Below are positions 5,346-19,658 of a DNA stretch of 20,885 nt, in pieces. The first letter of the stretch is position 1. Each line of letters begins with the position of its first letter. This DNA is from Chloroflexota bacterium (GTDB taxonomy: Bacteria; Chloroflexota; Ktedonobacteria; Ktedonobacterales; Ktedonobacteraceae). Location: positions 1 through 20,885 of the forward strand of contig CADDYT010000113.1 of assembly GCA_902810755.1 (NCBI GenBank), given 5' to 3'. The notes under the pieces are model-generated. The model had not been told where the DNA came from. It ran no database searches and was given only the letters and a program-made list of their open reading frames with translations. The position numbers were made by a program, and so were the translations under genes.

Positions 5346-5389
5346 CGGCTCATATCATTGACTGCTTATAGCCATAAATGGAGGAGTAT

Positions 5390-6427
5390 ATGACATCGCT
5401 GCTGGAACAGGAAATTGCCAGCCAACCGGAGGGCATTGCCCGGCTGCTGGAACGCGAAAGGGAGCATGTAGCGCAGATTGTCAGGGAGTTGCCGCCTTTC
5501 AACTACATCTTGATTGCCGCTCGTGGTTCGTCGGACCATGCCGCGACCTACGCGCAATATGTGTGGGGGGCGCTGGCGGGCTATCCCGTCGCCCTCGCCA
5601 CGCCCTCGCTGCACACGCTGTACCGGACGCCGCCGCGTCTTGAGGGCGCGCTGATCGTCGGCATTTCGCAATCAGGCCAGTCGCCGGATATTCTGACCGT
5701 TGTGGAAGAGGGCGTGCGTCAGGGCCGTCCCACGCTCGCCATCACCAACGATAGCGCATCTCCGCTGGCGGCGGTGGCCAACCACGTGGTCGAATTGCAC
5801 GCGGGCCTCGAGCGCAGCGTGGCGGCGACGAAGACCTACACGGCCCAGCTTGCCGTCATGGCTCTCTTCGCCGCTGTCTGGAACGGCGATCCCGCGCGTA
5901 TGGCCGAACTGCAGTCCCTGCCGCAGGCAATGGAGGCCACGCTGCACCTCAACGCGGAGAGCATAGCTCGCCGGGTTGAACGCTACTGTTACATGGATGG
6001 TTGTGTGGTCATCGGGCGCGGCTACAACTATGCCACCGCCTTCGAGCTTGCTCTCAAGCTGAAGGAATTGACCTACATCATGGTGACGGCCTATTCTTCG
6101 GCTGACTTCCGGCACGGCCCTATCGCCACCATTCACGAGGGCCTGCCCGTTCTTCTGGTTATGCCAGCAGGCGCATCCTTCGACGATATGCTCGCGCTCG
6201 CGCACGACCTGCGCCAGCGTGGGGCCGAACTGCTGATCGTCTCCGAGGCCCGGCAGGCGCTGGCGCTGGCGAAGACGCCCCTACCCATTGTACCTGCCGT
6301 TGCAGAGTGGCTTAGCCCGCTCATCACCGTTCTTCCCGGCCAGCAAATGGCGCTCTCCCTCGCGCTTGCGAAAGGGCTGAATCCCGACCTGCCGCGCGGC
6401 CTGCAGAAAGTGACAAAAACACGATAA
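5390..6427 (+). CDS. nagB-II: NagB-II type glucosamine-6-phosphate deaminase (double SIS domain)
   Basis: This 345-residue protein with two SIS domains (about 38-165 and 200-330) resembles the isomerase half of GlmS without a glutaminase domain. It closely follows the pattern of the NagB-II deaminases first described in Shewanella: EQEIASQPE at the N-terminus, ARGSSDHA (44-51), GISQSGQSPD (91-100), VAATKTY (144-150), GRGYNYATAFELALKLKE (209-226), SADFRHGP (237-244) and the C-terminal GLNPDLPRGLQKVTKT. It should convert glucosamine-6-P to fructose-6-P and ammonia in the cytoplasm, completing the NagA pathway. An in-frame ATG lies 12 nt upstream, but GGAGGAG sits just before the ATG at 5390, so this start is chosen. 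An AgaS- or FrlB-like sugar-P isomerase is the alternative. Its stop codon lies in a long palindrome shared with convergent nagA. Confidence 0.87.
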   Translation: MTSLLEQEIASQPEGIARLLEREREHVAQIVRELPPFNYILIAARGSSDHAATYAQYVWGALAGYPVALATPSLHTLYRTPPRLEGALIVGISQSGQSPDILTVVEEGVRQGRPTLAITNDSASPLAAVANHVVELHAGLERSVAATKTYTAQLAVMALFAAVWNGDPARMAELQSLPQAMEATLHLNAESIARRVERYCYMDGCVVIGRGYNYATAFELALKLKELTYIMVTAYSSADFRHGPIATIHEGLPVLLVMPAGASFDDMLALAHDLRQRGAELLIVSEARQALALAKTPLPIVPAVAEWLSPLITVLPGQQMALSLALAKGLNPDLPRGLQKVTKTR

Positions 6428-6486
6428 TGGGTATGGATGGAGAAATGCGCCCATGCGCGCATTTCCCCATCCATACCCATTATCGT
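6421..6486. terminator. Bidirectional 30-nt-arm palindrome spanning two stop codons
   Basis: Arms 6421-6450 and 6457-6486 pair at 29 of 30 positions around a 6-nt loop. The convergent nagB-II and nagA genes both end inside it, each with CGA TAA followed by TGGGTATGG, so the two coding ends are mirror copies. It probably works as a terminator or 3'-end stabiliser for both transcripts; there is no strong T-tract on either side. Confidence 0.75.
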
Positions 6487-7682
6487 ATTGTCAGACGTTT
6501 GCGCCATTCGTCGGTGGCGTAGGCGAGAGCGCCCCGACAGAGGGTGGCTTGCAGGGTAAGCGAGGAGTCGTAGATGAGCAGGTCGGCATCGTAGCCGGGT
6601 TGCAGGCAGCCTTTGCGGTTGGAGATGTGCGCGGCCTGCGCGGGATTGTAGGTGAGCATGCGCACAACATCCTGTAATGAAGATTCGGTCCAGCCGAGCA
6701 TGTTGCGCAGCGCCTGATCGAGGGTCAGCACGCTGCCGGTGATGGTGCCGTCGGCCAGGCGAGCGACGCCGCAGATGACCTGTGCAGGCTGGCCGGCAAA
6801 TTCAAAGGTGGCGTTGTCGATACCGGCGGCGGCCAGGGCGTCGGTGATGACGATGGTGCGTTCCGGCCCCAGCAATTTCACCAGTACATCCATCATGGCC
6901 GGGTGAACATGGACGCCGTCGGCGATCAATTCTCCGCACACCTGCGATGACTGCGCGACGGCGGCGATGGGGCCTGGGTTGCGATGGTGCAGCGAGCGCA
7001 TGGCGTTGAAGCAGTGGGTCATGTGGGTGACGCCAAGCTGGATAGCCTCACACGCCTGCTCATATGTGGCGTCGGTATGCCCCATGCTGACGGTGACGCC
7101 CGCCTCAACCAGCCGCCGGATCATCGCTGGCGCGCCCGGCAATTCGGGGGCGAGCGTAATCAGACGCAGATGGCCACCGGTCAGCGCGAGCAGACGTTCG
7201 GTCTCGGCCTCGTTCGGCGTGCGCAGCCACTCTGGCAGGTGCGCGCCCTTACGGTGCAGACTGATGTATGGGCCTTCCAGGTGGATGCCCAGCGGCTCGG
7301 CTGTTCCGTCCGTTGAAGCATGGCCCTCTATTGCCTCTACAGCGGTCGAGAGTTGCTGCTCCGGCAGCGCGCCGGGGACGCCGACAACGCCGATGAGAAA
7401 CGAGGTTACTCCTGTTTGCGGCACCCAGCGCGTATACGCGCGAATCTCTTCCGTATCGGTGGTGTGCAGGTTGAAGCCGCCGCCTCCATGTGTATGCACA
7501 TCGATAAACCCTGGCGTGACGATCATGCCGCTGGCATCAATGATCTTCCCACCATCTCCGGTCGCCGACCTTTCTTCCGCGACTCCTACGGCCTCGATAG
7601 TGGAACCATTGATGGTAATATCTCCATCGGACGTGTCACGACCGGCGTCCACCAGGCGTGTACCGCGTAATGTAAACCTCAT
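6480..7682 (-). CDS. nagA: N-acetylglucosamine-6-phosphate deacetylase
   Basis: This 400-residue amidohydrolase, the usual length for NagA, removes the acetyl group of GlcNAc-6-P to give glucosamine-6-P and acetate in the cytoplasm. Visible motifs are the metal-site DVHTHGGGG (61-69, His63 and His65), HLEGPY with the metal ligand Glu136, GHTD with His202, THCFNAM with His223, ADGVHVHP (254-261) and catalytic Asp281 in ITDAL. A longer frame starts upstream at 7721, but AAAGGAG precedes the ATG at 7682 and the family begins about here. It is convergent with nagB-II, which takes the next step, and divergent from the GntR gene. An extended -10 promoter and operator-like sequence lie about 135 nt upstream of the start. 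Confidence 0.96.
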   Translation of the reverse strand: MRFTLRGTRLVDAGRDTSDGDITINGSTIEAVGVAEERSATGDGGKIIDASGMIVTPGFIDVHTHGGGGFNLHTTDTEEIRAYTRWVPQTGVTSFLIGVVGVPGALPEQQLSTAVEAIEGHASTDGTAEPLGIHLEGPYISLHRKGAHLPEWLRTPNEAETERLLALTGGHLRLITLAPELPGAPAMIRRLVEAGVTVSMGHTDATYEQACEAIQLGVTHMTHCFNAMRSLHHRNPGPIAAVAQSSQVCGELIADGVHVHPAMMDVLVKLLGPERTIVITDALAAAGIDNATFEFAGQPAQVICGVARLADGTITGSVLTLDQALRNMLGWTESSLQDVVRMLTYNPAQAAHISNRKGCLQPGYDADLLIYDSSLTLQATLCRGALAYATDEWRKRLTIR

Positions 7683-7708
7683 ACCTCGTATCTCCTTTGC
7701 CGTACAGG

Positions 7709-7724
7709 TTCCATAGACCACAGA
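7709..7724. promoter_or_regulatory. Weak operator-like half site in nagA leader
   Basis: The sequence CCATAGACCACAG carries an intact right half (TAGACCA) of the dre/NagR palindrome but a poor left half. It lies between the nagA promoter and start codon. It is listed as an auxiliary site candidate only. Confidence 0.25.
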
Positions 7725-7747
7725 AAGGGAAGCCTGGAACTTGCCCC

Positions 7748-7804
7748 CTCTTGACAGACGCGCAAAAGTATGGAATTATTGATAGTGTCAAGAGTGGTCT
7801 ATAC
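7748..7804. repeat. Inverted repeat CTCTTGACA/TGTCAAGAG in nagA-gntR intergenic region
   Basis: CTCTTGACA (7748-7756) and its exact complement TGTCAAGAG (7796-7804) face each other. Each contains TTGACA, a consensus -35, on opposite strands. The left copy gives a plausible plus-strand promoter with AATTAT (7774-7779) after 17 nt. The right copy has no convincing -10 on the minus strand. The symmetry could also be a regulator target. Confidence 0.45.
7751..7779 (+). promoter_or_regulatory. Predicted promoter of gntR
   Basis: A consensus -35 TTGACA (7751-7756) is followed after 17 nt by AATTAT (7774-7779), 4 of 6 to TATAAT. Transcription would begin near 7786 and run through the operator candidate at 7803-7818, which suggests autoregulation of the repressor. 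Confidence 0.4.
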
Positions 7805-7818
7805 AACATACCAATTAT
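7803..7818. promoter_or_regulatory. dre/NagR-like operator between nagA and gntR
   Basis: AGTGGTCTATACAACA matches the dre/NagR operator family at about 12 of 16 positions and resembles the Bacillus NagR target. It covers the predicted nagA start point (minus strand) and lies just downstream of the predicted gntR start (plus strand). A related half site, CATACCAAT, follows at once. Binding by the adjacent GntR protein is inferred. Confidence 0.55.
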
Positions 7819-7823
7819 ACCAT

Positions 7824-7832
7824 TTCTACCAT
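7824..7832 (-). promoter_or_regulatory. Extended -10 promoter of nagA
   Basis: On the minus strand the sequence TGGTATAAT contains a perfect TATAAT preceded by TG one base away, an extended -10 element that does not need a good -35 (none is seen). Transcription would begin near 7817, inside the operator candidate at 7803-7818, giving a leader of about 135 nt. Confidence 0.5.
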
Positions 7833-8049
7833 ATCGGCGCGAGGGAATCAAGCCACTGGTGGTGGATGTCTGGTGGGGTACGCTGCGGGGGCGCGGGATA
7901 ACCTGGCGCGTTGGCCTGTCATGCCCTGAACATGGCGTCTCTCGCGGAGCGACCGCGAATATGCTATGATTGGGAGAAAAGACAGCCTGCCTGTTAGTTC
8001 AGAGGAGGATGCCCTGCCAGGGCCTCCGGGAAGGGTGAATGGAGATAGT

Positions 8050-8796
8050 ATGAGCGCGATTTACCGCAATAGCCCTGTTCCTCGCTACTTTCAACTGAAA
8101 GAGATTATGCGAGAGAAGATTCGCTCCGGCGAGTGGAAGCCGGGGAACCTGATCCCTTCGGAGCGCGAACTGGGCGAAAAATATGGCATCAGCCGGATGA
8201 CGGCCCGCCAGGCCATTACGGATCTGGTCAACGAGGGCCTGTTTTACCGCGAACAGGGGAAAGGCACCTTTGTCAGCCAGCGCAAAGTGACGCAGCAACT
8301 GATGCGCCTCACCGGTTTCACCGAGGACATGAGCGCGCGCGGGCAGAAGCCGAGTACCAGAGTGCTGTCCGCCCGGATGCGCCCGGCTGATGAGGAGACG
8401 GCGGAACGCCTGCGTATCCGACCGCAGGAACCGGTCATCTGCCTGCAGCGCCTGCGCCTGGCCGATGGCGAACCTCTCGCCATCGAGTTGTCGCAACTCC
8501 ACTTTCCCAACTGCGAGCGCCTGCTGGAGGAAGACCTGGAACACAACTCCCTTTATCGTCTGCTGGAGACGCAGTACGGCCTGCCGCTCATGGAGGCCGA
8601 GCAGGAGATAGAGGCCGGTCTGGCGGGCAACGAGGAAGCGCAACTGCTGAAAATTCCCATCGGTAGCGCCGTCCTCTACATTCGCCGCACCACCTACACC
8701 GACCGCAATCAACCCATCGAGTACGCAAAGTCCGTCTATCGCGGCAACAAATACACCTTCTACACCCATATGAAGCGCGAACAGCTCATGCCGTGA
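8050..8796 (+). CDS. GntR-family regulator with UTRA domain, NagR/DasR-like
   Basis: This 248-residue transcription factor of the GntR/HutC subfamily has an N-terminal winged helix (about 10-78) with PRYFQLKEIMREKIRSGEWK, LIPSERELGEKYGISRMT and GKGTFVSQ, and a C-terminal UTRA effector domain (about 90-245) of the kind that binds GlcNAc-6-P or GlcN-6-P in NagR and DasR. A longer frame begins at 7966, but GGAG lies 5 nt before ATG 8050 and family members begin close to the helix-turn-helix. It is divergent from nagA and upstream of murQ-nagZ. Operator-like sequences in the nagA-gntR and importer-nagB-II control regions make it the likely repressor of the cluster, released by an amino-sugar phosphate. 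Its effector is inferred, not shown. Confidence 0.92.
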   Translation: MSAIYRNSPVPRYFQLKEIMREKIRSGEWKPGNLIPSERELGEKYGISRMTARQAITDLVNEGLFYREQGKGTFVSQRKVTQQLMRLTGFTEDMSARGQKPSTRVLSARMRPADEETAERLRIRPQEPVICLQRLRLADGEPLAIELSQLHFPNCERLLEEDLEHNSLYRLLETQYGLPLMEAEQEIEAGLAGNEEAQLLKIPIGSAVLYIRRTTYTDRNQPIEYAKSVYRGNKYTFYTHMKREQLMP

Positions 8797-8815
8797 TCAG
8801 CATGAAAAAACGATC

Positions 8816-8920
8816 GTGCCATGTCATGCTGAGCGCAGCGAAGAATCCCCGGTAGCCAGCCGGACGAGATGGCCTCCTCGGATTCTGAGCGCAGCGAAGA
8901 ATGACACGTTGGGGCCACGT
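8816..8920. repeat. Interspersed GAGCG/AGCGAA repeat block
   Basis: Two units are present: GCCATGTCATGCTGAGCGCA with GCGAAGAATC, then GATTCTGAGCGCAGCGAAGAATGACACG. The outer parts form an imperfect inverted repeat (TGTCAT against ATGACA). The block follows the gntR stop by about 20 nt and could act as its 3' hairpin. It belongs to the same family as the blocks at 4987, 5229 and 19963. Confidence 0.65.
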
Positions 8921-8997
8921 TTTTCCGGCATGCCGTATGCTGGCTCCCCGTCACAGGTCGACAGCGCAGGCCAGCCGCCAGGGGTGGCCCTTCTTAG

Positions 8998-9144
8998 GCG
9001 TTAACTTAAGCCCGCGCGAGCGCGAAGCAGGCCAGCCGCCAGGGGTGGCCCTCCTATAGGCGGCGGCTCCACAAGCTCTACGATACGTCCGTCTAGAGGA
9101 GGGCCACCCCTGGCGGCTGGCCTGGGGCGGCCTGAAGTGAACGC
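8998..9144. repeat. 147-bp palindromic element, copy 2
   Basis: It has the same length, ends and arms as the copy at 5078-5224. It starts GCGTTAACTTAAGCC and ends GGCCTGAAGTGAACGC. The arms GGCCAGCCGCCAGGGGTGGC and CCCTCCT pair with AGGAGGG and CCACCCCTGGCGGCTGGCC. Relative to copy 1 at least two arm positions differ with the pairing partner changed to match, while the core differs freely. Confidence 0.75.
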
Positions 9145-9149
9145 CTATG

Positions 9150-9218
9150 GGGGCGGCCCTACGAGAGACGACCGCTTGTGGAGGGACACGAGCCGCCCGT
9201 ATAGAGTAGGGCCGCCCC
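9150..9218. repeat. Additional palindrome GGGGCGGCCCTAC
   Basis: GGGGCGGCCCTAC (9150-9162) pairs exactly with GTAGGGCCGCCCC (9206-9218). The spacer starts with a GACGACCGC stretch, like the core of the 147-bp element at 5078-5224. It looks like a partial or rearranged relative of that element. Confidence 0.6.
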
Positions 9219-9333
9219 TGGCGGATGGCCTGCGATGCCGGGTCGTATAAGAGGAATCCGGCAGGCTAGCAGAGGGAGCCAGCATACGGCATGACATAAT
9301 ACGATCAAACTCAAGACCGGAGGTAAAGAACAC

Positions 9334-10269
9334 ATGCCAGCCGATCATAGTGCGCATACAGACGATAGACAGGCGTTCAGCGGGCTGGAAACCGAGAAGG
9401 TCAATGCGGCCGGCGCCGCTATCGACCGCATGAGTCCGCTGGAAATGGTGCAGGTGATGAACGCGGAGGATGCGAAAGTCGCCTCTGCCGTCCAGCAAGA
9501 GCTGCCGCAGGTTGCCAGAGCCATCGAGGCCATAGCTGAGCGCATGCGGCGCGGCGGCCGGCTCATCTATTTCGGCGCCGGAACCTCCGGTCGCCTCGGC
9601 GCTCTGGATGCCGCCGAATGCCCGCCGACCTTCAACCTGCCGCAGGGGCAGGTCGTGGGCTGCATTGCCGGAGGCGAGTTCGCGCTCTGGCAGTCAGTCG
9701 AAGACCTTGAGGATAGCGTCGAAGCTGGCCGCGCCGACGCGACAAAGGTGGCCGTCACCGATGCGGACGCCGTTGTGGGCATCGCCGCCAGCGGGCGTAC
9801 TCCCTACGTGCTGGGCGCCATCGCTTATGCAAAGGAGCAGGGCGCATTCACCATTGGCATTGCCTGCAACAAACAGACGCCGCTCGAACAGGAGGTGGAG
9901 ATCATGATTGCCCCCATTGTCGGGCCGGAAGTGATCTCCGGTTCCACGCGCCTGAAGGCGGGAACGGCGCAAAAAATGGTGCTGAACATGCTCAGTACGG
10001 GAACCATGATCCTGCTGGGCAAGACCTTCGGCAATTTGATGGTGGATGTGCAGGCTACCAACCGCAAATTGCGTCGCCGCGCCATCACCATCGTCCAGCA
10101 GGCCACCGACCTTGACGCCCTCGCCGCCGAAGCACTGCTGGAAGCCTCAGAGGGCGAAGTCAAAACCGCTATTCTGGTTGGTCGTAGCGGTCTGGAGCCA
10201 TCGCTTGCCAGGGAACGGCTCGCGCAACATGATGGCATTCTGCGTGCAGCACTGGAAGCACTCCCATGA
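9334..10269 (+). CDS. murQ: N-acetylmuramic acid 6-phosphate etherase
   Basis: This 311-residue single-SIS-domain enzyme, of typical MurQ length, cleaves the D-lactyl ether of MurNAc-6-P to give GlcNAc-6-P and D-lactate in the cytoplasm. Motifs are the phosphosugar loop FGAGTSGRLGALDAAECPP (80-98) with Glu95 at the position assigned to catalysis in E. coli MurQ, GCIAGGEFAL (109-118), AASGRTPYV (151-159) and SGSTRLKAGTAQKM (202-215). GGAGG at 9319-9323 precedes the ATG by 10 nt. The stop overlaps the nagZ ATG (ATGA), so the two are co-translated. Its product feeds NagA, encoded on the other side of gntR. No MurNAc or anhydro-MurNAc kinase, nor a MurP transporter, is in the window, so the source of MurNAc-6-P must be encoded elsewhere. 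Confidence 0.96.
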   Translation: MPADHSAHTDDRQAFSGLETEKVNAAGAAIDRMSPLEMVQVMNAEDAKVASAVQQELPQVARAIEAIAERMRRGGRLIYFGAGTSGRLGALDAAECPPTFNLPQGQVVGCIAGGEFALWQSVEDLEDSVEAGRADATKVAVTDADAVVGIAASGRTPYVLGAIAYAKEQGAFTIGIACNKQTPLEQEVEIMIAPIVGPEVISGSTRLKAGTAQKMVLNMLSTGTMILLGKTFGNLMVDVQATNRKLRRRAITIVQQATDLDALAAEALLEASEGEVKTAILVGRSGLEPSLARERLAQHDGILRAALEALP

Positions 10270-11900
10270 TACATAACTCAGCCCTTTCCTTTGATGACCT
10301 GACGCTGGAAGAGCAGATCGGCCAGCTTTTTATGGTCGGCTTTCGGGGAACGACTCCCTCCCCGGAAATACTCGACATGATCTCGCGCTACCACGTGGGA
10401 GGCGTCATCCTCTTTTCGCGCAACGTGCAGGATACGCAGCAGGTGCTGGAACTCACAGGTAGTTTGCAGGAGGCAGCGCGGGCCGCCGGGCATCGCTTTC
10501 CCCTGCTCATTGCGATTGACCAGGAAAACGGGGCGGTGCAGCGGCTGGGGAGGGGTGCGACGCAGTTTTCCGGCAATATGGCTCTTGGCGCTATCGGCTC
10601 GGAGCAAATCGCCCACGATATCGCCTTTGCAACGGGCCGCGAACTGCGCGCGCTCGGCCTCAACATGAACCTTGCCCCCGTCGTCGATGTCAACAATAAC
10701 CCTGCCAACCCGGTGATCGGCGTGCGTTCCTTTGGCGAAGATCCGCAGCAGGTGGCCCGACTCGCCGCCGCAGTCGTGCGCGGCTATCAAGAGGCCGGTG
10801 TCATCGCCACGCTCAAGCACTTTCCCGGTCACGGCGACACTTCCACCGACTCACATCTCTCTCTGCCCACGCTCCCCTTCTCAGTGGAACGCTTAGCGCG
10901 GGTGGAACTGGTGCCATTTCGCGCTGGAATCGAGATCGGCGCGGACTGCGTGATGAGCGCCCATATCGCCTTCCCTGCCATCACCGGGCGCGCGGACATT
11001 CCCGCCACGCTCTCGCCAGCCATCATCCAGGGCTTGCTGCGCGCGCAACTCGGCTTTGGCGGCGTCGTCATCTCCGATTGCCTGGAAATGCAGGCCGTCG
11101 CGGACACCGTAGGCATCGCGCGGGGCAGCGTCCTCGCCTTACAGGCTGGCATCGACCTCGTCTTGATCTCCCACCTCTATTGGCGCCAGCAATCCGGCCT
11201 TGAAGCGACCTTGCAGGCAGTGCAATCTGGCGAACTCCCATATACAACCGTGCGCCAGGCGGTCGAGCGCGTGCTGCAACTCAAAAGCCGACGCCTCTCA
11301 TGGGAGAGCCTGCCGTCCGGTGCTGTGCCATCCTGGGTTGGCGGCGTGGAGCATCGCCGGTTGAGCGAACACGCCTACGACCTCTCCACCACCCTTGTGC
11401 GCAACGACGATGGCCTCGTTCCCCTGCGCCTGCAACCGCACGAACGCATCCTTGTCATCGCCTCTTCAAAAGATATGCGTTCGCAGGCCGAAGACCGTCA
11501 GTATTCCAGTGTTCCCCTCGTCGAGAGCCTGCGCCGCTATCACGAAAAAGTCGAAAGCCTGACCATTCCCGCCGATCTCAAGGAAGAGGATATCCCGCAG
11601 CTTCTCGCGGCCAGCGGCCAGTTTGATCTCGTTCTCATGGTCACGGTCAATGCCAATCGCGACCCGCAGCAGGCGGCCCTTATGCGCGCCCTGCTCCAAT
11701 CGGGCCAGCGTGTCATCGGCCTCGCCGTCGGTACTCCCTACGATCTGCTCGCCTTCCCCACCTTGCGCACGTATCTTGTTACCTGCGAACCAACCGGCCC
11801 GGCGCAGGTCGCGGCGGCAAAGGTGCTGTTCGGGCAGGTAGAGTCGAAAGGACGCTTGCCGGTGAGCTTGCCGCTTCCATCGTGTTGCCAGAAATCCTGA
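10266..11900 (+). CDS. nagZ: Beta-N-acetylhexosaminidase, GH3 family (NagZ-like)
   Basis: This 544-residue glycoside hydrolase family 3 enzyme would remove non-reducing GlcNAc from muropeptides or chitooligosaccharides. The catalytic TIM-barrel (about 1-335) carries AIDQENGAVQRLG (83-95), the NagZ signature KHFPGHGDTSTDSH (184-197) with the Asp195-His197 acid/base dyad, and VVISDCLEM with nucleophile Asp271. A C-terminal alpha/beta domain (about 365-540) makes it a two-domain enzyme like Bacillus NagZ rather than the shorter E. coli form. There is no signal peptide or lipobox, unlike secreted Bacillus NagZ, so it is predicted cytoplasmic and to act on imported disaccharides. It overlaps murQ by 4 nt; the same murQ-nagZ pairing occurs in Bacillus. 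Confidence 0.94.
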   Translation: MIHNSALSFDDLTLEEQIGQLFMVGFRGTTPSPEILDMISRYHVGGVILFSRNVQDTQQVLELTGSLQEAARAAGHRFPLLIAIDQENGAVQRLGRGATQFSGNMALGAIGSEQIAHDIAFATGRELRALGLNMNLAPVVDVNNNPANPVIGVRSFGEDPQQVARLAAAVVRGYQEAGVIATLKHFPGHGDTSTDSHLSLPTLPFSVERLARVELVPFRAGIEIGADCVMSAHIAFPAITGRADIPATLSPAIIQGLLRAQLGFGGVVISDCLEMQAVADTVGIARGSVLALQAGIDLVLISHLYWRQQSGLEATLQAVQSGELPYTTVRQAVERVLQLKSRRLSWESLPSGAVPSWVGGVEHRRLSEHAYDLSTTLVRNDDGLVPLRLQPHERILVIASSKDMRSQAEDRQYSSVPLVESLRRYHEKVESLTIPADLKEEDIPQLLAASGQFDLVLMVTVNANRDPQQAALMRALLQSGQRVIGLAVGTPYDLLAFPTLRTYLVTCEPTGPAQVAAAKVLFGQVESKGRLPVSLPLPSCCQKS

Positions 11901-12476: not shown

Positions 12477-12500
12477 GAAACCAGGGTGAGTTACAATAAT

Positions 12501-13838
12501 ATGGTTGCTGGGGGAAAGGGACGGTCGTTTGTGATCGTCGGCAACGGCATTGCAGGAGTGACGGCGGCGGAGACGCTGCGGGCGGAGGATGGTGCGGCCT
12601 CTATTACTATCATTGCTGCCAATACTGTCCCGGTCTATTACCGACCGGCACTGAAGGATTTTCTGGGCGGGCGCGTGCCTGCTGAGAAGCTATGGGCGCG
12701 CCCGCCCAGTTTTTATCAGGATATACGTATCCAGTATATTGCCGATCAGGTGGTGGCGATTGATGGACGGCAGCATCTGCTCTTGCTGGCCAGCGGACGC
12801 CAGGTGGGCTATGATTGCCTGCTGCTGGCAAATGGCGCGTCGGCCAGTACGCTGACCTGCCCTGGCATGCAGCTTGCCGGAGTGACGACGCTGCGCAGCG
12901 TGGCTGATTACCAGGCCGTGCTGGCCTATCTGGGCAATGTGCGGCGCGTTGTCGTCGTTGGTAGCGGCACGCTGGCCCTGGAAACGGTGGAGATGCTGCG
13001 ATATCGTGGTTTGCAGGTGAGTCATCTGCTGCGCCATCAGATACTCTGGTCAGAGGTGCTGGATGCCACTGCCTCTGATCTCGTGCTGCAACAGGAGGAG
13101 CATGATGGGGTTGATGTGCGGCTTGAGCAGGAGGTCGCGGAAATCGTGGGCAAAGATGGCTGCGTCAGTGGCGTGGTGACGCGCCAGGGCCAGCATATTC
13201 CCTGCGAACTTGTTCTTATAGCCATTGGAATTCAGCCGAATATTGATTTCATTCGGCGCGGCGGCATTGCCTGCGGGTGCGGCGTGCAGGTGGACGCGAG
13301 TATGCGCACCAGTATGCCCGATATCTATGCCGCCGGCGATGTCGTCGAGGCGTATAACCCGCTTACCGCTCGCGCTCGCCCGCTCGGTCAGTGGTATCCG
13401 GCCATCCAGCAGGGCCGTGCCGCCGCCTATAGCATGCTCGACCTGCTGGACACCGGCAGCACAGCCGGGGCGAATATCAACTATCTCAATGCCACCTTTC
13501 TCTACGGCCTTGATTTTGCCTCGGTTGGTCTGACCAGCGTCTCCGGCTACCCGTATCATCCGCTGGTCGCGCCGCCGCAGCCGCGCCGCTATCAGAAAGT
13601 GCTGTTGCACAACGGCATTCCCGTTGGCTGGCTCTCGCTGGGCGATCGCGCCCCGGCCCTTGCCTTCAAACGCGCCATCGACCACCATGTCAACCTCCTG
13701 CCTGTCGCCTCTGTCCTGTGCGAGCAGCACTTCGACCTCGATAGCTGGCTCGATGCGCAGGGAGTGCCGCCGCCCATACTGGGTGTGAGCAAGGTGGGGG
13801 AGGACCACCTTGCTTCTCAGATGGCCCGAATACGTTGA
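12501..13838 (+). CDS. FAD-dependent NAD(P)H oxidoreductase
   Basis: This 445-residue class-I pyridine nucleotide-disulfide-type flavoprotein has an FAD-binding GNGIAGVTAAETLR stretch (14-27, GxGxxG), an NAD(P)-binding GSGTLALETVEMLR stretch (154-167, GxGxxA), and the second FAD contact IYAAGDVVEA (275-284). It resembles NirB N-terminal, rubredoxin reductase or ferredoxin reductase-type proteins; no redox-active CxxC is seen. It would pass electrons between NAD(P)H and an iron-sulfur partner, and the next gene encodes a polyferredoxin. The start is uncertain: GTG at 12486 adds five residues, but AGGGTGAG suits ATG 12501. The gap to the next gene is 40 nt, and three genes appear to form an operon. 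Confidence 0.88.
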   Translation: MVAGGKGRSFVIVGNGIAGVTAAETLRAEDGAASITIIAANTVPVYYRPALKDFLGGRVPAEKLWARPPSFYQDIRIQYIADQVVAIDGRQHLLLLASGRQVGYDCLLLANGASASTLTCPGMQLAGVTTLRSVADYQAVLAYLGNVRRVVVVGSGTLALETVEMLRYRGLQVSHLLRHQILWSEVLDATASDLVLQQEEHDGVDVRLEQEVAEIVGKDGCVSGVVTRQGQHIPCELVLIAIGIQPNIDFIRRGGIACGCGVQVDASMRTSMPDIYAAGDVVEAYNPLTARARPLGQWYPAIQQGRAAAYSMLDLLDTGSTAGANINYLNATFLYGLDFASVGLTSVSGYPYHPLVAPPQPRRYQKVLLHNGIPVGWLSLGDRAPALAFKRAIDHHVNLLPVASVLCEQHFDLDSWLDAQGVPPPILGVSKVGEDHLASQMARIR

Positions 13839-13878
13839 GTAGATACATACCAGTCGAAGTCTGGGGTAAAGAACAGAG

Positions 13879-15882
13879 ATGCAATCACCATTACCTGCTT
13901 CCGCTATTGTGGTATCCGGTATGCAGCATCGAAGCGATATAATAATGCCATTGGATGCGAAACAGATCCGTTTTGAAATTGATATGTGTATTGGCTGTGA
14001 TCGCTGTATGCTTGCCTGTCCCGTCCCGTCATCCTCCAGTATCACGATTGCCGAACTGAATGCCGCTACGGTCAATCAGACCGGGACGCTTGCGCCGCAA
14101 ATTGCTGACTTCACCGAAGCCTGTGTGATGTGCGGTTCCTGCGTTCCCGTCTGCCCCGTTGGCAACCACCGCGACCTGTTGATGCTCTCCCTCAAGCAGC
14201 GGCTCGGCGCCAGCTGGAACAGGCCGATAGATGTCGCTCGCGTGCAAAGCGGCTTGCCTGCCGGTGTACCGCTGCCATCCTTGCTCGCCGCCTTGCGCGC
14301 GCAGCGGCTGTTCAGCCAGGGGGTTCCCGATTCCTACCTGCTGCACCTCGTTGCTGAAGCAAGCGTACAGGTATATGACACGGGCCATGTTCTCTTCCGA
14401 GAAGGCGATTTCGGGCGCGATATCTTCTTTATCCTCGATGGGCAGGTCGAATTATCTGCCGCCGATGCGAGCGGAACGGCCCTGCCGTTCGCGCTCTATG
14501 GTCGGGGCGAGTACGTGGGCGACTACGGCATGCTGACAGGTCAGTCGCACTACGCGACGGCGACGGTACGCGCGCCGGGTGCGTTCTTGCTGGTTGTGCG
14601 GGAGCAGACCATGCAGCGATTGATGGAACTGGTTCCGACTGTACGTCACTATTTTGAGCTGAGCAGCAACGCTCGCTCGCTCGAAGCTATCTTGAAGCGC
14701 CTGTCCCTGTTTACGGGCCTGCCCGATGACACGCTTCGCTGGCTGGCGCAGCAGATGCGCATACGTCGCTACGAACGTGACGAGCGGCTCTTTGCCGAAG
14801 AGGGGCAAAGTGTGGGGATTGTAGCGAACGTGGAGGCGCGCGAGGCATTGCATATCGTGCTGGAAGGCTTCGTCAAAGTCTCGCGTCGCACAGCAATGGG
14901 GACGGGGCGTGCAAAAAGCGATGAGCGTGTTATTGCCTACCGCCAGCATGGCGACTACTTCGCCGGGGGCCTGGATATGCTCGGCGATCAACAGACGGTA
15001 ACAGCGACGGCTATCACGCGCGTGCGTGTGGCCGAGGTGCCGCGCCAGGCCCTTTCACAGATTTTTGCTGCCTTTCCCGCTGTCGCGCAGCGTTTCCAGA
15101 CGGGCCTGCAACAGTATCGCGAAGCGGCAGACGCCGCCCATACCGCCATGTTTGCGACCATTGACCCCCGACAGCTAGCTGCCGGGATGCCTGTAACGAA
15201 CCCTCGTTCGGATGCTGAGGCGCGCCGGGGGCTGCACGCCCTCGTCAGCGAGGGTGTGGTCGAGGGAACTGATGTGCTGGTGATTGACCTTGATCGCTGC
15301 ATCCACTGCGGCGAGTGTGAAGAAGCCTGCGCGCGCCGTCACGGTCATTCGCGTATGAACCGCAAGGGGATGGTAGTGGGCAATATGAGTATCGCTACCG
15401 CCTGCCGCCAGTGCCAGGACCCTGTCTGCATGCTGTGCAGTCGCGGCGGCATCGCGCGCATGCCCGGCGGCGAGGTCTACATCACCGAAAGCTGCATCGG
15501 TTGTGGTATCTGCGCCGAACGTTGCCCTTACGATAATATCTCGATCATCCCTCTGGCAGAAAGCCGCGAAAGTCGGGAGGGAGTTGAGACGCCCTCAACC
15601 TGGCGGCGTTTCAACAGTCTGCTCAAGCACGGTTTCGGCAAAGAAGCCGGGCGCAAGACGCTGCCCGTGCTGACGGCTGGCACGCTGCCTCGCCCGTTTG
15701 ATGGAGAGAGCAGGGACGGGTATACAGAGATGTTGAAAAAGGTAGCCATTAAGTGCGATCTGTGCGCCGGATACGAGAATCAGGCCTGCGTGCAGGCCTG
15801 TCCGACCGGAGCCGCTTTCCGCGTCAACCCCATTCGCTTCTTTGGCTCGACCGAGGATATTCTGCGACAGAGGGCGCAGTAG
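13879..15882 (+). CDS. Polyferredoxin with two internal cyclic-nucleotide-binding-like domains
   Basis: This 667-residue fusion starts with a two-cluster ferredoxin (Cys37/40/43/47 and Cys82/85/88/92). Two cNMP-binding/CRP-like beta-roll domains follow (about 140-255 and 275-400). The C-terminal ferredoxin resembles DmsB/FdhB electron-transfer subunits, with Cys474/477/480/484, Cys509/512/517/520, Cys539/542/545/549 and Cys626/629/637/641. That makes 24 cluster cysteines, enough for six [4Fe-4S]. In the sensor-like domains the phosphate-cassette equivalents GEYVGDYGMLTGQSHYATAT and GDYFAGGLDMLGDQQTVTAT lack the usual Arg, so cNMP binding is doubtful. No signal, Tat motif or membrane segment is seen. 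It sits between a flavoprotein and a di-heme membrane protein and probably wires them. ATG 13879 follows GGGGTAAAGAACAGAG; ATG 13945 is an alternative. Confidence 0.9.
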   Translation: MQSPLPASAIVVSGMQHRSDIIMPLDAKQIRFEIDMCIGCDRCMLACPVPSSSSITIAELNAATVNQTGTLAPQIADFTEACVMCGSCVPVCPVGNHRDLLMLSLKQRLGASWNRPIDVARVQSGLPAGVPLPSLLAALRAQRLFSQGVPDSYLLHLVAEASVQVYDTGHVLFREGDFGRDIFFILDGQVELSAADASGTALPFALYGRGEYVGDYGMLTGQSHYATATVRAPGAFLLVVREQTMQRLMELVPTVRHYFELSSNARSLEAILKRLSLFTGLPDDTLRWLAQQMRIRRYERDERLFAEEGQSVGIVANVEAREALHIVLEGFVKVSRRTAMGTGRAKSDERVIAYRQHGDYFAGGLDMLGDQQTVTATAITRVRVAEVPRQALSQIFAAFPAVAQRFQTGLQQYREAADAAHTAMFATIDPRQLAAGMPVTNPRSDAEARRGLHALVSEGVVEGTDVLVIDLDRCIHCGECEEACARRHGHSRMNRKGMVVGNMSIATACRQCQDPVCMLCSRGGIARMPGGEVYITESCIGCGICAERCPYDNISIIPLAESRESREGVETPSTWRRFNSLLKHGFGKEAGRKTLPVLTAGTLPRPFDGESRDGYTEMLKKVAIKCDLCAGYENQACVQACPTGAAFRVNPIRFFGSTEDILRQRAQ

Positions 15883-15897
15883 AAAGGAGGGGCAACT

Positions 15898-16821
15898 ATG
15901 TCAGTAGCGACAAAGCCGCCCATACCCGAACAGCGACCGTTGCGCCGCCTGTGGAAGTCTCCACGCTCAAAGGTCTGGTGGGTCAGTCTGCTCATTGTGG
16001 CATGTTACTATCTCGGCGTGCTGTTCCTCTTTGCGCAGGCGATGAAACAACGATCACCGGGAGAGGTTCCCGGCAGCGGTTCGCTGTCGAAGTTTGGCTT
16101 TCTTGTACTGGGAACGGTCACGCTCGCGCTGGCCTATACCCTGCGCCGCCGTTTTGCGCGCTTCCTGCCCGGCAAGGCGCAGGACTGGCTCTGGCTTCAC
16201 AACTGGCTTGGCATCGCCGCCGTTCTGATCGCCTTTCTCCATGCTGATTTCTCGCATGTGCTGTATGATTACTGCTTCAGCTATCAATGCCTGCGCAGCG
16301 AATATTTTGGCCCGTTTGCCCTCTATGGCCTGCTTCTCCTCGTTGCCTGTGGCATTGCTGGTCGCCTGCTCGATCTCCGGCAGACGCGCATCATCGCGCA
16401 AGAGGCCAGTTCAAACGGCGCTGGCATCGCGCAGGCGGTGGAGGAGCGCGTGCTTGAACTGCGCTATGCCGTTGAACGGCTCTATGCCGGTAAATCCGCC
16501 GCTTTCAAACAATCCTGTATCCAGGCCCTTAGCCGCCAGAAAGACGCATCTCTTCTCTCTCCCACCATGCTGGCCGAACTGCAAGCGATGCTGCCATCGC
16601 TTCCACCCGCCGAGCAGGCCGATTTCCAGCGTGCCGGTGCAATCCTGAGCGAACGCGCTCGTCTGCTGCAATCGCTGTGGCGTCAGCAGCGAGCGCAACA
16701 ACTCATGCGGCGCTGGCGTACCCTGCACATCGTCCTTGCCTGCCTCGCCCTTGCCGCCATCTGCCTCCATCTCAGCTTTATTGCCGTTCCCGCGGTACTC
16801 ACTCGCCTGTATATTCACTAA
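15898..16821 (+). CDS. Membrane protein, di-heme cytochrome b-like
   Basis: This 307-residue membrane protein has about five helices (near 26-47, 66-82, 99-118, 138-157 and 276-298) and a hydrophilic, partly helical insert of about 115 residues before the last helix. Helix 3 carries His101 and His115 and helix 5 carries His277 and His291, both H-x13-H. This is the spacing by which ferric reductase and cytochrome b-type proteins hold two stacked b-hemes, so a trans-membrane electron path is likely. AAGGAGG lies 7 nt before the ATG and the gene follows the polyferredoxin by 15 nt, so the two are probably co-translated. It could reduce quinone or an outside acceptor, or run in reverse to the cytoplasmic clusters. 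The heme call is inference from His spacing. Confidence 0.85.
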   Translation: MSVATKPPIPEQRPLRRLWKSPRSKVWWVSLLIVACYYLGVLFLFAQAMKQRSPGEVPGSGSLSKFGFLVLGTVTLALAYTLRRRFARFLPGKAQDWLWLHNWLGIAAVLIAFLHADFSHVLYDYCFSYQCLRSEYFGPFALYGLLLLVACGIAGRLLDLRQTRIIAQEASSNGAGIAQAVEERVLELRYAVERLYAGKSAAFKQSCIQALSRQKDASLLSPTMLAELQAMLPSLPPAEQADFQRAGAILSERARLLQSLWRQQRAQQLMRRWRTLHIVLACLALAAICLHLSFIAVPAVLTRLYIH

Positions 16822-16875: not shown

Positions 16876-16981
16876 TGACCCATCCTACTATAGCTATGAC
16901 GCTCAAGGCAACGTGCGCAATGTGACCGATAGCAGCGCAAATGTGCTGGTGCAGGAGAGCTACTACGCCTTTGATGGTTGA
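16876..16981 (+). pseudogene. RHS/YD-repeat gene remnant
   Basis: The plus-strand frame from 16876 reads PIDPSYYSYDAQGNVRNV then TDSSANVLVQESYYAFDG and a stop. This matches the conserved core of RHS/YD-repeat proteins (YYxYDxxGNVxxxTD...YxYDAFG). No start, repeat array or toxin tip is present, so it is a decayed piece of a large RHS gene, left between the cytochrome-like gene and the small membrane protein. It marks past rearrangement here. Confidence 0.7.
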
Positions 16982-17097
16982 ACAACATCACACTTCTACG
17001 GGAACTTTTGGGGCACGTGAAAGAGTCTTTGTTATAGAACCTGTGCAGGGAACAAAGACAGGAAAAACAGGTAAAGAACTTTCAGGAGGCTTATACT

Positions 17098-17681: not shown

Positions 17682-19112
17682 TCAGGCGATCCAGACCTGA
17701 ATGGTGCTGGGGGTGGTTTCGGGCGAGTCTGCCGAGGCGATGTATCTTCCATCCGGGGACCAGGCGAGCAGGCGGATCGTCGACGGGTTTTTCTTGAAGG
17801 TGTAATACGTCTTGTCGGTGACTGTGTTCCAGAGTTCGATGTGATCGCCTGCCGAGGCAATGCTGCTGCCGTCGGGCGACCAGGAGAGGGCGGTCAGGCC
17901 GAACCCGTCGTTGGGTCCGTTGTGCGTTTGCAGGAGCTTGCCTGTCTGCGCGTCGATAATCTTCACGGCATCGTTATCGGTGTAGGCGATGCGCTGGCCG
18001 TCTGGTGAGAAGGCGGCGGTAATCACATTGCGCGCATGCTCCTCAATATCCAGCACTTTCTGGCCTGTGCCTACCGACCAGAGCTGAATACTGCCATCTA
18101 CACTGGTTGAAACAATGTATTTGCTGTCCGGCGACCAGGAGATCGACTGGATAAAATCGTGATGTCCGTTATACTGGAGCAGCATTTTGCCGGTAGTGGT
18201 ATTCCAGACCTGGATGTAGTTGGAACCCGGCGAGAAGAAGGATGTCGCCATCAGCGAGCCGTCGGGGCACCAGGCGGTGACGCCGGAGCCGCTGCCGCCG
18301 CTGGTGGGAATGTTGAGCATGGCGAGCGGGCCGCCGGTTGTCTGCATCCGCGCCTGGCTGTTTCCTGTGTAGGTCATCAACAACTGGCCGGTTGTCGCGT
18401 CATAAATCTGTACCCCCGCGCCTACAGAGGTGACGGCGACGCGCTTGCCATCGGGCGAGAAGACGATATCCATAATGCTGCCGGAGCGGAGAGGGCCGTA
18501 GTTGACCACATTCTTCCCGCTCGTCGCGTCCCATGACTGCGCCCGCAGCGTGCCAACGCCCAACCGCTTACTGTCCGGCGACCAGTTCAGTGTGTAGGCA
18601 TTGAGGCCATCTTCCATACTGACAGTCGTGCTATAGACTACCTGCCCGATGTTCTCTGGCCCCGGCGTGGGGGAGACCGCCTGCGTAGGCAGTGGATTGA
18701 GCGTCCCTCCTCCGTTCCGGGGCGAGCCGACTGTTGTGGAATGATGGGCCGCATTGAAGACAAAGGCCATACTGCCCACCAGGATGGCCAGAAAGAGGAC
18801 GGCGGCCAGAATGCCGATGCGCTGTCCGCGCGGCGTATGTAAAGGCGCATTACTGCGCAGGGTTTGTCGTTCTTGCATAGGAATGATAGTTCCTTTCCGC
18901 ATTCGTTGCTGCTCAATGCCGGACGCGGCTTCGCTGATACGCGCCCACATGCGTCGCAGCGTTTCTCGCTCGTGCGCCGTGTCCATTGCATAGAAACGGG
19001 TGAGGTAAGCGATCAGTTCGGCATCTGCCTGCTCGTCGGGCGATTGCCTGCGCAGGCGCTCGATTTGCTCATCTACCTCCTCAGGGCGAAAGAACTCATC
19101 CGACGTATTCAT
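17682..19112 (-). CDS. Membrane-anchored WD40 protein, putative sigma-factor partner
   Basis: This 476-residue protein has a charged, helical cytoplasmic N-terminus (about 1-95) without the HxxxCxxC of zinc-binding anti-sigma factors, one membrane helix (about 99-119), a Ser/Thr/Pro/Gly-rich linker and an external WD40 propeller (about 155-476). Seven blade motifs are visible: WSPDSKR, FSPDGKR, WCPDGSL, WSPDSKY, FSPDGQR, WSPDGSS and WSPDGRY. The gene overlaps the ECF sigma gene by ATGA. By position and topology it could hold the sigma factor at the membrane and sense an outside signal through the propeller. That is inference; the N-terminal part matches no anti-sigma domain I can name. Confidence 0.9.
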   Translation of the reverse strand: MNTSDEFFRPEEVDEQIERLRRQSPDEQADAELIAYLTRFYAMDTAHERETLRRMWARISEAASGIEQQRMRKGTIIPMQERQTLRSNAPLHTPRGQRIGILAAVLFLAILVGSMAFVFNAAHHSTTVGSPRNGGGTLNPLPTQAVSPTPGPENIGQVVYSTTVSMEDGLNAYTLNWSPDSKRLGVGTLRAQSWDATSGKNVVNYGPLRSGSIMDIVFSPDGKRVAVTSVGAGVQIYDATTGQLLMTYTGNSQARMQTTGGPLAMLNIPTSGGSGSGVTAWCPDGSLMATSFFSPGSNYIQVWNTTTGKMLLQYNGHHDFIQSISWSPDSKYIVSTSVDGSIQLWSVGTGQKVLDIEEHARNVITAAFSPDGQRIAYTDNDAVKIIDAQTGKLLQTHNGPNDGFGLTALSWSPDGSSIASAGDHIELWNTVTDKTYYTFKKNPSTIRLLAWSPDGRYIASADSPETTPSTIQVWIA

Positions 19113-19658
19113 GATGCAGACCCTTCCTTCCCTTGCGCATAGAGACGGCGCAAGAAATTCAAACTGCGTGAGAGGGTGACGCGAATGGCATTTTCCTGTT
19201 TCCCCAGACGAGTCGCGATCTCGTAGCAGGATAGCCCTTGCCCGAAGCGCAGGCGTAATACCTCCTGCTGCCCGGCGGGTAGCCGGTTGATCTGGAACTG
19301 GATGGCAGCCAGGTCTTCGTGCTGCAGGGCCAGCGTTTCGGGGTCGCGGGCCTCGGACTCATATAAGCTCTCGCCCACGTCTTCTAACGCGACAGACTGT
19401 CGCCGTCTGGCATAGCGGTAGGCATCGATGGCTTTGTTGCGCGCAACCCGCCAGAGCCAGAGCAACTGTGCCCGTTCGGAGAGCGAGGCGAAGCTTTTAC
19501 TTTCCAGCGCTGCGAGAAAGACCTCAACCACCAGGTCTTCCGCGTCCGCTGGAGAGGGGGCGTGCATGCGCATAATAGGCAAGCATGCCCGGCGCATACC
19601 GCTCGAACAACGCGGCCAGTTCTAACCCTGCCTGCGCTTCATCGCCGTCTACCTGCAT
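19109..19658 (-). pseudogene. ECF sigma-70 factor with apparent frameshift
   Basis: Reading from ATG 19658 (AAAGGGGA just upstream) gives MQVDGDEAQAGLELAALFER then YAPGMLAYY, a normal ECF N-terminus (region 2). The rest, MHAPSPADAEDLVVEVFLAA and onward, lies in the +1 frame. Removing one T from TATTAT (19577-19572) joins them into one protein of about 182 residues. The second frame holds the end of region 2 (WLWRVARNKAIDAYRYARRR) and region 4 (QINRLPAGQQEVLRLRF, then SCYEIATRLGKQENAIRVTL). Without correction, frame 0 stops soon after, and internal ATGs would give a 162-residue or shorter protein lacking the first helix. A sequencing error, a mutation or programmed slippage are all possible. 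The last codons overlap the WD40 gene by 4 nt. Confidence 0.8.

Follow-up and report, generated by a model that had tools for sequence, protein, structure and literature searches.

What can a flavoprotein, a polyferredoxin interrupted by two cyclic-nucleotide-binding-like domains (CNBDs) and a five-helix membrane protein do together? The question is raised by a 20,885-nt stretch of DNA from a Chloroflexota bacterium (Ktedonobacteraceae; GCA_902810755.1, CADDYT010000113.1, positions 1 to 20,885, forward strand), analysed at its full length and called here the window, in which the genes of these proteins lie on one strand with gaps of 40 and 15 bp between the called open reading frames (ORFs). 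We call the polyferredoxin FUS and the membrane protein MEM. That the genes make up one tight operon had been proposed in a preliminary description of the sequence, and the ORFs, their strand and their spacing bear it out. Our answer, held with a little better than even confidence, is that the three proteins together are a single electron-transfer complex, anchored in the cytoplasmic membrane, which connects NAD(P)H in the cytoplasm with the outer side of that membrane. Cofactors, topology, order of partners and direction of flow in such a conduit are predicted from sequence.

The trio is conserved as a unit and is not a chance neighbourhood, since each of the 23 Ktedonobacteria loci found has the flavoprotein gene upstream of FUS, and each of the 21 with sequence left downstream has MEM there (L003 and L015 stop at a contig end). 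These loci come from a scan with the FUS alignment of one genome per species, which relied on two peptide patterns taken from the N-terminus of FUS, favours close kin and returned 28 loci, the other five being weak ferredoxin-type matches. Across the class, FUS is present in 18 of 47 genomes and MEM at E < 1e-50 in 17, all within those 18; in the eighteenth (G278) the locus lies at a contig end. In the phylum-level runs, scoring was confined to the few best candidates of each genome.

The same loci tie the flavoprotein to FUS more closely still. Flavoproteins of the relatives carry a tail with FHA domains, usually closed by a zinc ribbon (Pfam, four proteins scanned), and similarity to this tail was found in 23/23 loci: 21 have it within the flavoprotein ORF, L008 and L019 in an adjacent ORF. 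Flavoprotein, FHA tail and FUS are a single ORF in three of the 23 (L013, L015, L020). Similarity to the FHA tail is absent anywhere in the window, whose flavoprotein ends without FHA domains or zinc ribbon. A further companion appears upstream in nine of the 23 loci, where a gene encodes a kinase fold, a transmembrane segment and a Rieske domain (one copy is divergent and one is cut by the contig start). The proteins have a twin-Arg-like stretch before the helix, and eight show bc-type CTHxxC...CPCH ligands. Their seven readable kinase domains look like pseudokinases, because HRN and EFG replace the expected HRD and DFG. No such gene was found in the window, 14/23 relatives have none nearby, and Rieske-plus-kinase-like genes occur also in genomes without FUS. 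Downstream, 12/23 loci have a zinc-ribbon/transmembrane/RskA_C-like gene.

Pairing of FUS with MEM extends beyond the class. The FUS profile is matched at E <= 1e-15 in 64 of 294 Planctomycetota genomes, mostly over the four-cluster part and in a few cases over a CNBD only. Among 34 Planctomycetota loci, mostly the best-scoring places of the profile search and six of them on contigs below 10 kb, FUS is present in all, and 28 have MEM no more than 8 kb away on that strand, in 26 cases touching FUS or within 60 bp of it. The preliminary description had named rare adjacency of the genes in other genomes as what would refute it; the counts from both phyla speak otherwise. A multiheme ORF (at least five CxxCH) accompanies 29/34 loci, with at least nine CxxCH in 27, and occurs together with MEM in 28. 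These neighbours match Cytochrome_C7 and MtrC/MtrF-type models, and one has an FHA domain. Unrelated NAD(P)H-type flavoproteins also lie near Planctomycetota FUS, NuoEF-like in 5/34 and FNR-type in 7/34. At three loci (L134, L138, L147) a NuoEF-like gene adjoins FUS and neither MEM nor a multiheme ORF is seen; this is possibly a soluble version.

On Sphingobium plasmids (FUS matches in 12 records, two of them read) the order is again flavoprotein, CNBD-CNBD-four clusters, then MEM (E 1.6e-37). Unlike in the window, the flavoprotein (Pyr_redox_3/2, thioredoxin-reductase-like) is fused at the N-terminus into one 825-841-aa protein, no N-terminal two-cluster part was seen in FUS, and a decaheme cytochrome and a CpdA-like phosphoesterase follow (NZ_CP020539.1, L156); the cluster is uncharacterised. 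The phosphoesterase, Calcineurin-like, comes directly after the genes of the flavoprotein-FUS fusion, MEM and the decaheme cytochrome (L156 14051-14899; L157 12142-12990) and is named cpdA in one record. Among the 120 matches listed of 5138 hits in a wider protein search, names from Planctomycetota, Acidobacteriota and Methylomirabilota appear, often with a NuoG-like N-terminus; for the last two it is FUS alone that was seen.

As a control, 13 Chloroflexales loci with a CNBD-four-cluster protein contain 0 MEM, 0 multiheme ORFs and no flavoprotein gene of this type nearby. Their uncharacterised protein (e.g. Roseiflexus castenholzii, P0123) shares the domain order of FUS at about 31% identity but has no N-terminal ferredoxin. 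In a Roseiflexus-like genome its gene (L060 6966-8414) stands beside PucC and DUF3623 genes. At L086 it stands beside an aldehyde ferredoxin oxidoreductase-type gene (Pfam), a homologue of which is nearby in L083 and L085.

The individual proteins agree with the proposed chain. The flavoprotein, for which an in-frame ATG at 12501 is an alternative to the GTG at 12486, matches Pyr_redox_2 at 8.3e-51 and has the FAD (flavin adenine dinucleotide) motif GNGIAG at residue 19 and the NAD(P) motif GSGTLA at 159. An Arg comes after strand two of this latter site, as in 10/11 aligned members; by analogy with glutathione reductase, it suggests an NADPH-like enzyme. Neither a CxxC nor a CxxxxC pair is present in this flavoprotein. 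Its best family matches were PadH, the phenylglyoxylate dehydrogenase epsilon subunit (NF045765; 170.6 bits against a curated cut-off of 475), and NirB-type (162.5 against 578), and we assign it to neither.

In FUS all 24 Cys fall in six four-Cys motifs, two before and four after the CNBDs (37/40/43/47, 82/85/88/92, 474/477/480/484, 509/512/517/520, 539/542/545/549 and 626/629/637/641), and a Pfam-type scan finds two cNMP_binding stretches flanked on both sides by Fer4-type matches. This agrees with the earlier picture of a six-cluster protein with two CRP-like domains in its middle; flavin, cluster and heme binding in the module are predicted from such motifs. The built-in ligand sensor expected by the same description is doubtful in the window, since both phosphate-binding cassettes are degenerate: cassette patterns with Glu and Arg, relaxed and strict, match its FUS 0 times. 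In CNBD1 the cassette there reads VGDYGMLTGQSHYAT and not the GE...R pattern retained by most relatives. CNBD1 cassettes vary (Glu 8/16, Asp 8/16; Arg 7/16, His 6/16), and the Glu of the CNBD2 cassette is missing in the Ktedonobacteria sequences inspected. The relaxed pattern matches at least once in 14/23 Ktedonobacteria loci and 88/120 close homologues. CNBDs may bind a ligand elsewhere in the family, because Sphingobium FUS has one strict cassette; a cAMP phosphodiesterase-like neighbour was seen in Sphingobium only.

A second module of the same Ktedonobacteria genomes (L117-L121, 5/5 fetched) bears on the origin of FUS. It resembles the window trio in having a flavoprotein, a 101-112-aa two-cluster ferredoxin and a MEM-like protein with two H-x13-H, and differs in lacking CNBDs and the four-cluster part; it too is uncharacterised. 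Its ferredoxin aligns with the N-terminal part of FUS, so that FUS has the look of a fusion between this ferredoxin and a CNBD-four-cluster protein.

MEM has the two H-x13-H pairs described earlier, H101-x13-H115 and H277-x13-H291, within WX3HX13H motifs that read WLWLHNWLGIAAVLIAFLH and WRTLHIVLACLALAAICLH, and all four His are invariant in 15 Ktedonobacteria homologues. Columns G92, H101, G105, H115, G152, G155, W273, H277 and H291 do not vary across 16 MEM drawn from three module types and two phyla. Both WX3HX13H motifs are found in 22/22 Ktedonobacteria MEM (window included), 28/28 from Planctomycetota and 2/2 from Sphingobium; five second-module proteins retain both H-x13-H and only one motif Trp. 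Among 2658 ORFs from 70 loci (23 Ktedonobacteria, 34 Planctomycetota, 13 Chloroflexales) the double motif occurs in 49, exactly the 49 MEM-profile hits, and this count is the more independent check, as MEM and FUS profiles were partly built from the same loci. Judged by sequence, MEM is a family of its own. Model helices span 25-50, 62-87, 94-114, 137-173 and 237-306, and hydropathy agrees on five transmembrane helices, with a predicted cytoplasmic helical domain between helices 4 and 5. Loops on the expected cytoplasmic side hold 6, 5 and 15 Lys plus Arg, versus 1, 1 and 1 on the other side.

Put together, the flavoprotein's FAD would accept a hydride from NAD(P)H (probably from NADPH), and electrons would pass singly through the six [4Fe-4S] clusters of FUS. 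The two CNBD folds may by now be mainly spacer or docking domains in the window lineage. The docking site of FUS would be MEM's helical domain and its basic loops in the cytoplasm, where FUS would hand electrons to a putative inner heme b held by the conserved His101/His277. From there they would go to an outer one held by His115/His291, and this outer heme would exchange electrons with a partner beyond the cytoplasmic side. The neighbouring multiheme cytochrome c is probably this partner in Planctomycetota and Sphingobium, as is perhaps the membrane-anchored Rieske domain in the nine Ktedonobacteria loci; in the window none is encoded near the module. The sequence fits either direction of flow: outward, for disposal of NADPH or reduction at the surface, or inward, for reduction of NAD(P)+. 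An electron path from NAD(P)H over flavin and Fe/S to heme b, as first proposed, is plausible for a module conserved as a unit, which may itself be the oxidoreductase. A soluble or purely regulatory role seems to us less likely than a conduit, mainly because fusions link the flavoprotein to FUS, pairing links FUS to MEM, and multiheme neighbours link an outside partner to MEM.

The strongest rival to the conduit is quinone exchange: an NAD(P)H:menaquinone oxidoreductase, or the reverse, in which MEM trades electrons with the quinone pool like the cytochrome b of formate dehydrogenase-N or hydrogenase. It accounts for the want of any outside acceptor encoded in the window, and the C-terminus of FUS resembles HydN/HycB-type four-cluster subunits, which in known enzymes adjoin quinone-reactive cytochromes b. 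Quinone activity has also been proposed (He et al. 2017, PMC5566968) for inner-membrane proteins with the same motifs, those of PCC3 and PCC4, which are putative porin-cytochrome clusters for extracellular electron transfer in neutrophilic Fe(II) oxidisers. Multiheme cytochromes recurring beside MEM in two other phyla, however, point to an outside partner, although a quinone site is compatible with them too, and we regard this alternative as possible and clearly the less probable.

MEM could instead be a surface reductase or NOX-like enzyme that gives electrons to O2 or Fe(III) at the outer face, which we think improbable. The H-x13-H pairs on helices 3 and 5 would suit it, as would the weak Ferric_reduct matches in 12/15 Ktedonobacteria MEM, but in the window, where a weak DUF4405 match is also seen, the score for PF01794 is 25.9 bits, below the Pfam cut-off of 28. 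NOX5 appears in the list of a second-look aligner, a match that weighs neither way. NOX/FRE architecture has an FNR-type FAD/NAD domain, whereas the flavoprotein here is Pyr_redox_2. A redox-signalling unit, with the chain setting the redox state of the Rieske pseudokinase and of FHA-bound partners and regulation as its main output, would draw on the FHA tail of all 23 relatives and the HRN/EFG kinase-Rieske genes, but it is very hard to credit for a window devoid of both, when most relatives have no such Rieske gene nearby, similar genes occur apart from FUS, and six clusters with two hemes look built for flux.

Beyond the conduit itself, and with more doubt than belief, one may take FUS-MEM for the conserved centre of a respiratory complex of a type not yet recognised, with members in Chloroflexota, Planctomycetota and Pseudomonadota. 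It would be a signal-gated transmembrane conduit from NAD(P)H to redox partners outside. Its NAD(P)H module could be exchanged (Pyr_redox_2, thioredoxin-reductase-like, NuoEF-like, FNR-type), as could its outlet (multiheme c, Rieske), and the gating signals would be cyclic nucleotides acting on the CNBDs and phosphothreonine acting on FHA domains. The window would then be a stripped form that has lost both switches. If this is true, the complex type is broadly spread, and cells may use second messengers and phosphorylation to switch the traffic of electrons between NAD(P)H and the outer face of the membrane. The module is amenable to testing now, being present in Sphingobium and in cultured Ktedonobacteria (Ktedonobacter, Dictyobacter, Tengunoibacter).

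Table 1. Positions of the module in the window and of two related features in other Ktedonobacteria loci; nucleotide limits of gene parts were computed from residue numbers.
Feature	Position	Strand	Description
Flavoprotein gene	12486..13838	+	450-aa two-dinucleotide-binding flavoprotein, Pyr_redox_2; GTG start
FUS gene	13879..15882	+	667-aa CNBD-polyferredoxin
FUS N-terminal two-cluster ferredoxin part	13987..14154	+	residues 37-92; motifs CIGCDRCMLAC, CVMCGSCVPVC
FUS CNBD1	14368..14628	+	residues 164-250; phosphate-binding cassette degenerate (GD...SHY)
FUS CNBD2	14746..15063	+	about residues 290-395, limits approximate; cassette without Glu (GDYFAGGLDML)
FUS C-terminal four-cluster part	15298..15801	+	residues 474-641; HydN/HycB-like
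MEM gene	15898..16821	+	307-aa protein, five predicted transmembrane helices
MEM first WX3HX13H motif	16186..16242	+	residues 97-115 (His101, His115)
MEM second WX3HX13H motif	16714..16770	+	residues 273-291 (His277, His291)
Kinase-fold/transmembrane/extracytoplasmic Rieske gene	L001 4008-5465		example among nine loci
Second three-gene module	L117 6166-9489		flavoprotein, two-cluster ferredoxin, MEM-like with two H-x13-H

Elsewhere in the window, 5378-11900 resembles an amino-sugar and cell-wall recycling block, with SIS-domain proteins, a NagA-like protein, a GntR-like regulator, a MurQ-like protein and a GH3 hydrolase; the last of these and one of the SIS proteins are Pfam assignments, the remaining genes were judged by eye. 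Just past MEM, at 16880-16982, lies a short stretch, YSYDAQGNVRNVTDSSANVLVQESYYAFDG, that looks by eye like an RHS/YD-repeat remnant. The minus strand at 17682-19597 holds an ECF-type sigma factor gene with a transmembrane WD40-repeat protein downstream.

How does the module compare with known systems? The preliminary description recognised no characterised complex of this composition, and we found no published study of the module in the open-access literature; its membrane part, as said below, is not without precedent. QmoABC and FdnGHI-type complexes likewise combine one or more Fe-S subunits with a two-heme b membrane subunit, Qmo having flavoproteins as well. To our knowledge their flavoproteins differ from that of the window, and we know of no CNBD in them. 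No ORF of at least 100 aa in the window has two or more CxxCH, so there is no multiheme c cytochrome as in PCC4, and no porin is among the window proteins scanned, no beta-barrel search having been made; for these reasons we do not file the window as PCC4. The lineage of the window is thought to lack an outer membrane.

The PCC3 and PCC4 clusters, themselves predictions, contain five-helix inner-membrane proteins of about 300 aa in which helices 3 and 5 each bear WX3HX13H and helix 4 bears SGxxG. These have been likened to ferric reductase and cytochrome b, and in PCC4 subgroup II, Planctomycetes included, an Fe-S gene lies upstream of the inner-membrane gene (PMC5566968). MEM shares the five helices and both WX3HX13H motifs. 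Its SGxxG reads CGIAG in the window, but SGxxG is kept in 20/21 Ktedonobacteria relatives and 15/28 Planctomycetota MEM, so that most Ktedonobacteria relatives satisfy all three published motif criteria. FUS differs from the PCC4 Fe-S gene in its CNBDs and extra ferredoxin; 'cyclic nucleotide' and 'Rieske' have 0 occurrences in the main text of PMC5566968, and its passages used here show no Chloroflexota among PCC3/PCC4 hosts. Likened to these proteins by the published motifs, MEM probably works as they do. What is new here is the Chloroflexota version, with no porin seen and no cytochrome c, and what had already been predicted is the membrane part only. If our reading is true, the hypothetical inner-membrane protein of predicted iron-oxidation clusters gains a defined cytoplasmic partner.
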